Assembly: GCF_029502005.1 (NCBI RefSeq) | Contig: NZ_JAMQOT010000004.1 | Location: forward strand, 248,001 to 312,000 | Direction of reading: 5' to 3' | Length of the DNA: 64,000 nt | Origin: Natrinema salsiterrestre | Lineage (GTDB): Archaea; Halobacteriota; Halobacteria; Halobacteriales; Natrialbaceae | Part shown: positions 9,603 through 10,492 of the stretch, in pieces | Layout: every line of letters starts with the position of its first letter | Position numbering within the stretch: the first letter of the stretch is position 1 | Made by a program: the position numbers and the translations under genes | Notes under the pieces: model-generated | The model's database searches: none | What the model saw: the letters and a program-made list of their open reading frames with translations, nothing else | What the model was told of the DNA's origin: nothing

Positions 9603-9749
9603 ATGCGCGACGAAGAAGAAATCCGAGAGCAGTACGAATTCCTCAAAGAGCACCTCGAGAGCGACGAGATGCGACACGACGGCGTCGAGGAGATGTTCAC
9701 GTACTACAAGCGCGCGATCGGGTGGGTACTCGAGGAAGAGCACATCTAA
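9603..9749 (+). CDS. Small acidic helical protein (48 residues)
   Basis: The 48-residue protein starts MRDEEEIREQYEFLKEHL and ends WVLEEEHI. It is strongly acidic with a heptad-like pattern of hydrophobic residues, so it is probably a short helical hairpin or coiled coil. The ATG at 9603 is preferred because a T-rich TATA element lies about 29 bases upstream; the in-frame extension upstream is basic. Codon use matches real genes of the window. Such short proteins are common in haloarchaea, but I know no function. Confidence 0.65.
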   Translation: MRDEEEIREQYEFLKEHLESDEMRHDGVEEMFTYYKRAIGWVLEEEHI

Positions 9750-9809
9750 TCGCGCCCGAGCGTGGCGGGGTCGTTTCTCGTCGGCCACTACTCCGCACCG
9801 TGTCGTTAC

Positions 9810-9817
9810 ATTTAAGT
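9810..9817 (+). promoter_or_regulatory. TATA box of candidate small RNA
   Basis: ATTTAAGT is a good archaeal TATA box with no start codon of a plausible gene about 27 bases downstream. Instead the first base of a strong hairpin falls there. Confidence 0.5.
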
Positions 9818-9837
9818 AGTCTCCACAGCATCGTCCA

Positions 9838-9940
9838 CGTGACGCTTCGCTTGGAGGGCCGAAGCGTCAGCGGGGACCAATTCAGGGCGGCAAGCGATCG
9901 CGTGACACTTTTCCGTCACGCGATCTGCTTTCCTGTTTCG
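9838..9940 (+). ncRNA. Candidate small RNA with two perfect hairpins
   Basis: Two perfect stems lie in tandem in this gene-free stretch. TGACGCTTCG (9840-9849) pairs with CGAAGCGTCA (9860-9869) around a 10-base loop. GATCGCGTGAC (9896-9906) pairs with GTCACGCGATC (9915-9925) around an 8-base loop. A TATA box at 9810-9817 would start transcription at about 9838-9841, exactly at the first stem, and a pyrimidine-rich CTGCTTTCCTGTTTC follows the second stem as a possible terminator. I see no box C/D or ACA arrangement that would make it a guide RNA. A long + frame through this region has poor codon use and was rejected. Confidence 0.45.
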
Positions 9941-10216
9941 AAATCGCTACTCTCGTAGTGTCGACACCGCCGAACCATTATTCATATAATAAATCCCGTT
10001 AATACATCCCCCAAACATATAATAGTACCGTAATACAATTCCTGAACAGTAAACATGAACTGCTCATTATGTGTGGTTTAGCGGTCGATTCGTCACGGGG
10101 GTTATGAGTCTACCGGGCTGAAAACGAGACTGCTCACTGGTAATAGCCCCCTTTCGGTCGAAACAACCCGATAGCCTTATTAAAATTCGACAGTAAGTAA
10201 GATTGGTACTTTCCCA
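9941..10216. other. AT-rich intergenic region before padR
   Basis: Bases 9976-10070 are unusually AT-rich for this GC-rich window, with several overlapping TATA-like runs (CATATAATAAATC, ACATATAATAG). The motif GTTTACTG occurs in reverse at 10047-10054 and CGAGACTGCTCACTG at 10125-10139. A TTATTAAAATTC box about 35 bases before the padR ATG probably drives that gene. No coding frame was accepted. Confidence 0.5.
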
Positions 10217-10492
10217 ATGTACGACCTGACAGGATTTCAGCGTGACTTGCTCTACGTCATCGCTGGCGAGGACGAGCCCCACGGACTGGCGATCAAAGAG
10301 GAACTCGAGCAGTATTACGAGAAGGAGATCCACCACGGGCGACTCTATCCCAACCTCGACACCCTCGTCGACAAGGGCCTCGTCGAAAAGGGCCGGCGCG
10401 ATCGTCGAACGAACTTCTACACGCTCACCCGCCGCGGCCGCCGCGAACTCGAGGCGCGCCGCGATTGGGAGGCTCAGTACGTCGATCTGTAG
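10217..10492 (+). CDS. PadR-family transcriptional regulator
   Basis: The 91-residue protein is a compact PadR winged-helix regulator. It starts MYDLTGFQRDLLYVIAGED, continues with the PHGLAIKEELEQYYEKEI helix-turn-helix, the conserved HHGRLYPNLDTLVDKGLVEK segment and a wing with RRTNFYTLTRRGRREL. It lacks the C-terminal dimerisation arm of long PadR proteins, as is usual in haloarchaeal small forms. Its long AT-rich upstream region suggests it controls itself. The next gene, an MgtC/DUF4010 membrane protein 96 bases downstream on the same strand, is a possible target, but that is only inferred from position. Confidence 0.93.
   Translation: MYDLTGFQRDLLYVIAGEDEPHGLAIKEELEQYYEKEIHHGRLYPNLDTLVDKGLVEKGRRDRRTNFYTLTRRGRRELEARRDWEAQYVDL

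Follow-up and report, generated by a model that had tools for sequence, protein, structure and literature searches.

The question raised by this locus is whether two inverted repeats in a short intergenic region of Natrinema salsiterrestre belong to the gene of a functional RNA and, if so, what that RNA might do. The window analyzed here is the whole stretch of 64,000 nucleotides from contig NZ_JAMQOT010000004.1, and an earlier note, made from its sequence alone, had proposed a small RNA with its own promoter at this position. The two perfect tandem stems of 10 and 11 bp that it described were confirmed (Table 1). Perfect hairpins of at least 10 bp with short loops occur three times in the window, compared with 0–5 (mean of ~2.7) in 64 kb of Markov-1 random sequence of the same dinucleotide makeup, and two of the three are no more than 86 nt apart. 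When positions 9834–9945 were folded as RNA, the predicted free energy was −53.3 kcal/mol (z = −4.66), and equal stability was reached in 0 of 200 shuffles. By themselves, the two hairpins are not above chance, and the case therefore rests on the comparison with other genomes; conservation, fixed promoter spacing, and covariation elsewhere are judged to raise the feature far above chance. The gene, its promoter, its structure, its distribution, and a set of complementary sites in 3′ UTRs were demonstrated by these comparisons. In our assessment, positions 9837–9940 quite probably encode a small RNA of the trans-encoded type that is present in essentially all Halobacteria, has its own BRE/TATA promoter, ends in a covarying hairpin and a pyrimidine tail, and would regulate specific mRNAs via pairing at their 3′-UTR sites.

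Table 1. Features of the predicted small RNA locus and of the genes carrying candidate target sites. Positions are those of the window unless a genome handle (G000, the genome to which the window belongs) is given.
Feature	Position	Strand	Basis
48-aa ORF, conserved syntenic upstream neighbor	9603–9749	+	near the RNA in 49 of 73 loci
Promoter: BRE-like CGTTAC (9804–9809) and TATA box ATTTAAGT (9810–9817)	9804–9817	+	195 loci compared
Predicted small RNA, ~105 nt	9837–9940	+	covariance model match 9835–9941, 128 bits; ends inferred
Predicted transcript start, A9837	9837	+	24 nt past TATA center; conserved C(−4)A(−3) initiator-like pair
Hairpin 1: stem 9840–9849/9860–9869 (10 bp), loop CUUGGAGGGC at 9850–9859 (10 nt)	9840–9869	+	sequence almost invariant
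Predicted target-pairing patch 1, UGGAGGG, in hairpin 1 loop	9852–9858	+	complement CCCTCC(A) is second half of 3′-UTR sites; duplex predictions
Predicted target-pairing patch 2 (main seed), GCGUCAGCGGGGA, in hairpin 1 3′ arm and linker start	9864–9876	+	peak of 11-mer complement scan
Single-stranded linker GCGGGGACCAAUUCAGGGCGGCA, ultraconserved	9870–9892	+	columns invariant or >90% conserved, 69 sequences
Hairpin 2: 11-bp core 9896–9906/9915–9925, 8-nt loop	9892–9930	+	variable sequence, pairing maintained
Hairpin 2 extension, AAGC/GCTT	9892–9895/9927–9930	+	covariation
Weaker extension of hairpin 2	9883–9887/9931–9935	+	
Pyrimidine-rich tail TTTCCTGTTTC, probable termination signal	9929–9939	+	sequence; TTTCC-type tail in most relatives
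Predicted RNA 3′ end	within pyrimidine tract	+	
PadR-family regulator, syntenic downstream neighbor	10217–10492	+	PF03551, E = 6.4e-18; near the RNA in 52 of 73 loci
Candidate target: Tat-type beta-helix-like protein gene	G000:C21:162394-163341		recurrent 3′-UTR sites
Candidate target: protein of 484–507 aa with N-terminal hydrophobic segment			recurrent 3′-UTR sites
Candidate target: small membrane protein, 117–125 aa	G000:C24:14401-14755		recurrent 3′-UTR sites
Candidate target: protein of 195–201 aa			recurrent 3′-UTR sites
Candidate target: ABC-2 permease			seen once

A blastn search with positions 9830–9945 as the query gave matches in 193 of the 194 genomes of the class Halobacteria and in 64 of the 65 genera. 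Covariance model R1, which was built on close relatives before being run on the whole set, located the RNA in 52 of the order's 53 genomes; a search of ~240 further genomes of the phylum gave no match. No match to the exact core was found in viral contigs, and no family in Rfam 15 was matched at either the gathering or the relaxed thresholds. The only genome of the order in which neither blast nor the covariance model detects the RNA is G034 (1.9 Mb, 98% complete), which is also devoid of the CGCTGACGC/CCCTCC pattern described below. Most genomes have one copy, and most of those in family f5, which contains Haloferax and Halorubrum, have two. Across these genomes, an RNA with an almost frozen 5′ domain and a fixed promoter appears to be universal to the class, being found in practically every member.

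The two paralogues of Haloferax (L212, 3004–3108; L214, 6403–6505 on the minus strand) differ in their promoters, linkers (AATCTAGGG or AATTCAGGG), and neighbors, and may have divided functions. Divergent extra copies are present on the megaplasmids of Halorubrum lacusprofundi (pHLAC01) and Haloarcula sp. GH36 (L472, 1495–1551; L473, 1499–1590); these keep the 5′ domain and have different 3′ halves.

Promoter positions were compared across 195 loci, counted from the first base of hairpin 1. Upstream of this base, CGNTACNTTTAAGT is found at constant spacing, with the intervening sequence free. The most constant positions are C at −36 (186 loci), A at −32 (185), T at −28 (194), T at −27 (190), and A at −26 (188), and TTWA begins at −29 in 148 loci and at −28 in 38. 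From its sequence and spacing, this conserved element is assigned as a haloarchaeal BRE/TATA promoter, and the predicted start at A9837 follows from its fixed distance. The TATA box singled out in the earlier note is confirmed and lies 23–30 nt before the first stem. A further motif, GAGCGAC, at 9945–9990 of the window and at the same place in relatives, was found in 45–47 of 197 loci, about a quarter, and was rejected as too loose to claim.

The conservation of the RNA itself is unevenly distributed. In an alignment of 69 diverse copies, the 5′ domain has 35 invariant columns, which comprise hairpin 1 with the loop CUUGGAGGG(C) and the linker. Hairpin 2 varies in length and sequence with its pairing preserved. 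In the model alignment of 79 sequences, 94.9% of the cells are paired and 19 of the 33 pairs have changed on both sides; the covariation score was determined to be 0.319, compared with 0.116 for shuffles and at most 0.064 for slid partners. This alignment was fitted to the model and hence favors the structure, and it is the slid controls and the raw sequences that make the result plain. Double-sided changes were found in every one of the 15 pairs that make up helices 3 and 4 (hairpin 2) and in 4 of 5 pairs of helix 2, and the paired cells in the covariation analysis amount to 97, 95, and 80% for these helices. RNAalifold missed hairpin 2 when applied to a sequence-only alignment, because the length of this hairpin varies. 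Hairpin 1 rarely varies at all. In two paralogues of family f4 (L420 and L424, around position 1500), the stem is altered (arm CGGAGCGUC) and the seed, GCGUCAGCGGGGACC, is identical; a U-A pair has become C-G in L424, a compensatory change, and L420 has the G-U intermediate. The pyrimidine-rich tract reported after the second stem is also present. The earlier note had asked for conservation and compensatory changes in related genomes as a test, and its proposal of a small RNA with its own promoter not only withstood this test (193 of 194 class genomes; 19 of 33 pairs) but proved to be an understatement.

The first clue to a possible function came from partial blast matches, among which sequences complementary to the core of the RNA were seen just past stop codons. 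For the two invariant patches, UGGAGGG and GCGUCAGCGGGGA, complementary sites of the form UCCCCGCUGACGC-N-CCCUCCA occur in 3′ UTRs, often in tandem; these are referred to here as CCCGCUGACGC-type sites. The sites were searched with the bipartite pattern CGCTGACGC-N(0–9)-CCCTCC, which is the complement of GGAGGG...GCGUCAGCG. Across 29 genomes of the genus, this pattern matches at 79 places: 29 correspond to the RNA gene itself, and the other 50 are located elsewhere; the reversed pattern has 6 matches. Of the 50 non-self matches, 47 are in same-strand 3′ UTRs, which make up 10.6% of the strand positions (binomial, p = 2e-42, although many sites are orthologous and per-site p values thus overstate their independence); in 46 of these 47, the stop codon is no more than 115 nt away. 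Up to three bipartite copies are found per UTR, and the sites follow about five distinct gene families in the genus (Table 1). Those without a Pfam match were described by inspection of their sequences, and gene boundaries near the sites were drawn with a simple codon-usage caller. The flanks, which were left free in the search, also fit the RNA, with C at −1 in 45 of 46 sites and A after CCCTCC in 22 of 46, compared with a background of 15%. The site element CGCUGACGC is found in the 3′ UTRs of the beta-helix-like and small membrane protein genes.

The gene for the beta-helix-like protein could be followed through 30 orthologues from many genera. The word CCCGCTGACGC (at most one mismatch) is present in 25 of the 30 3′ UTRs of 150 nt. 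By comparison, it is present in 5 of the 712 3′ UTRs predicted within the ~860 kb sampled from two genomes, and three of those five belong to targets. In the same 30 UTRs, the reverse complement and the reversed word were each found 0 times, and shuffled words were found 0.2 times on average (maximum of 7). An 11-mer complement scan along the 5′ domain peaked exactly at GCGUCAGCGGGGA, again with 25 of 30. In other families, 15 of 38 pattern matches are in 3′ UTRs, where 10.6% is expected by position (p = 3e-6). Outside the genus, 22 of 40 matches are coding background and the targets are less well defined. The predicted duplexes have net energies of −23 to −30 kcal/mol after the cost of opening hairpin 1, with hairpin 2 intact. 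A k-mer over-representation test of the sites gave nothing; an exact-word expectation derived from sub-words is the wrong test, and location and strand are the informative properties. The tandem CCGCTGACGC/CCCTCC modules just after the stop codon (L258–L284) turn over fast between species with the sRNA seed fixed, and this is possibly the birth and death of target sites.

By sequence, the RNA is an independent noncoding unit (own promoter, terminator-like end, no conserved frame) with conserved complementarity to mRNAs encoded elsewhere, as is characteristic of a trans-encoded base-pairing sRNA. The matching sites after certain exported or membrane protein genes suggest that these genes are regulated by base pairing of the RNA with their messages, and it is as part of the best explanation that we infer such regulation.

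The layout of the patches suggests how the pairing could proceed. The two patches flank and include the 3′ arm of hairpin 1, and the UGACGC of the target is a copy of the 5′ arm. The loop patch UGGAGGG with CCCUCCA, and the linker GCGGGGA with UCCCCGC of the site, would serve as footholds, after which UGACGC of the site would displace the 5′ arm that it mimics. Approximately 20 bp would be formed by this strand exchange, hairpin 2 would stay folded, and tandem sites would allow several RNAs to bind per message. We propose strand exchange as the simplest reading of the patch layout; the pairing would take place in the cell and would be regulatory. Archaeal precedents lean slightly toward stabilization of the mRNA as the effect.

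The extent of the conservation raises the alternative of a housekeeping RNA that acts via a bound protein, with the invariant 5′ domain as the protein site and the 3′-UTR sites either binding the RNA incidentally or serving some other factor. Hairpin 1 and the linker are conserved far beyond what is usual for base-pairing regulators, as the 35 invariant columns attest, and part of the linker, AAUUCAGGGCGG, is conserved although the target UTRs contain nothing complementary to it; this part may bind protein. However, the complementarity is bipartite, strand-specific, confined to 3′ UTRs, and directed to just the loop and seed patches, and the conservation may instead stem from several simultaneous targets or from a protein together with targets. 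We regard this alternative as unlikely. Complementarity of the loop, linker, and core to 16S and 23S rRNA was no better than that of shuffled sequences, and the tail, which is conserved only within the family of the window, scored slightly above the control mean. Two archaeal guide RNA classes were considered and rejected: H/ACA, given the uninterrupted hairpin 1 and the TTTCC tail, and C/D, given the absence of RUGAUGA and CUGA boxes from the conserved columns.

It is decidedly unlikely that the 3′-UTR sites are decoys that titrate the RNA, with the RNA itself as the regulated partner. The tandem sites, with as many as three bipartite copies in one UTR, would suit such a sponge, but recurrence of the same site-bearing genes across many species and genera is easier to account for if those genes are regulated, and the role of the RNA would be left unexplained.

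From Natrinema through Haloferax, the RNA gene is located between the 48-aa ORF and the PadR gene. The 48-aa ORF, which has no Pfam or NCBIfam match, is ~65–96% identical and in most families usually lies 46–210 nt before the RNA; it is possibly an unannotated conserved small protein. The PadR protein is unusually conserved, with identities mostly of 80–98% across the order, pointing to a core regulator. In most loci, PadR follows the RNA on the same strand, as it would if the RNA were its cis-acting, riboswitch-like leader, but its start is ~260–780 nt further on, at a variable distance and beyond the terminator-like tail. Moreover, the second copies in Haloferacaceae adjoin other genes and PadR has the opposite orientation in Halarchaeum (L201, L202). 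The copies elsewhere and the change of orientation argue that the RNA is not the leader of either neighbor, and we give this reading almost no weight. Equally remote is a conserved small protein, since the otherwise invariant loop of hairpin 1 differs in length by one base (CTTGG or CTTTGG), which shifts the frame, and hairpin 2 is free in length and sequence with its pairing retained. A stop-free frame does cross the RNA in some species; in Haloferax, for instance, it runs from a GTG at the base of hairpin 1.

Several known RNAs of Haloferax volcanii can be compared with this one. The 161-nt sRNAhts10 (HVO_2213s) is reported to be conserved in 18 other haloarchaeal genomes, and its deletion in 2014 gave mild phenotypes (PMC3956466). 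Copy B of Haloferax follows genes for an E1-alpha without E1-beta, RAM, TrkA, RAM, and DUF proteins and precedes a gene for a chemotaxis transducer. HVO_2209 is oadhA4 (PMC8305020), and from these neighbors the order of genes around copy B in other species of Haloferax is taken to correspond to HVO_2209 to HVO_2214. Judged by this gene order, copy B is most likely sRNAhts10; the reported 161 nt compares with ~105 nt predicted here. The mild phenotypes would count against regulation if sRNAhts10 is a paralogue, and the second copy could mask the effect. In the open-access literature, we found no description of a structure family, universal promoter, class-wide distribution, paralogy, or target for sRNAhts10. 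The chromosomal sRNA_61 (111 nt) is very abundant and ribosome-associated and has no protein product (PMC12482152); its size fits copy A, and it may, as a guess, be that copy. The sRNA132 of H. volcanii has a similar design, with two stems, a single-stranded linker, its own promoter, and predicted pairing with a target 3′ UTR (PMC6560208), but it is restricted to the genus Haloferax and has no reported sequence relation, whereas the RNA described here is class-wide and is predicted to pair through a loop and a stem arm at tandem sites.

The RNA shares with other archaeal and bacterial trans-encoded base-pairing sRNAs its own promoter, a terminator-like hairpin, and a seed complementary to several mRNAs. 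It differs from them in its 3′-UTR sites, which are bipartite and often tandem, and in a seed that is half buried in a stem predicted to be opened by the target and is almost unchanged across the class. A literature search for the RNA sequence itself returned nothing, and the family, its structure, its promoter, and its 3′-UTR sites were not found in Rfam 15 or in the open-access literature.

The small RNAs of haloarchaea have been described as poorly conserved, with 22 of the 27 studied confined to one species (PMC3956466). The present RNA contrasts with these in being universal to the class and in having a target code readable from sequence. With it, the questions of how targets are recognized by archaeal sRNAs and how expression is controlled by haloarchaeal 3′ UTRs become directly testable, and the covariance model and target pattern are ready for the annotation of any haloarchaeal genome. 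In haloarchaea, the direction of translational control is set by the 3′ UTR (PMC2636863). We tentatively suggest, as a possibility somewhat short of an even chance, that a single ultraconserved RNA could be the trans-acting factor of 3′-UTR-dependent control throughout Halobacteria, its hairpin opening itself by strand exchange on tandem bipartite sites and coordinating genes for exported and membrane proteins. If this is true, a universal trans-acting RNA would be the molecular agent for the so far unexplained setting of translational direction by the 3′ UTR.
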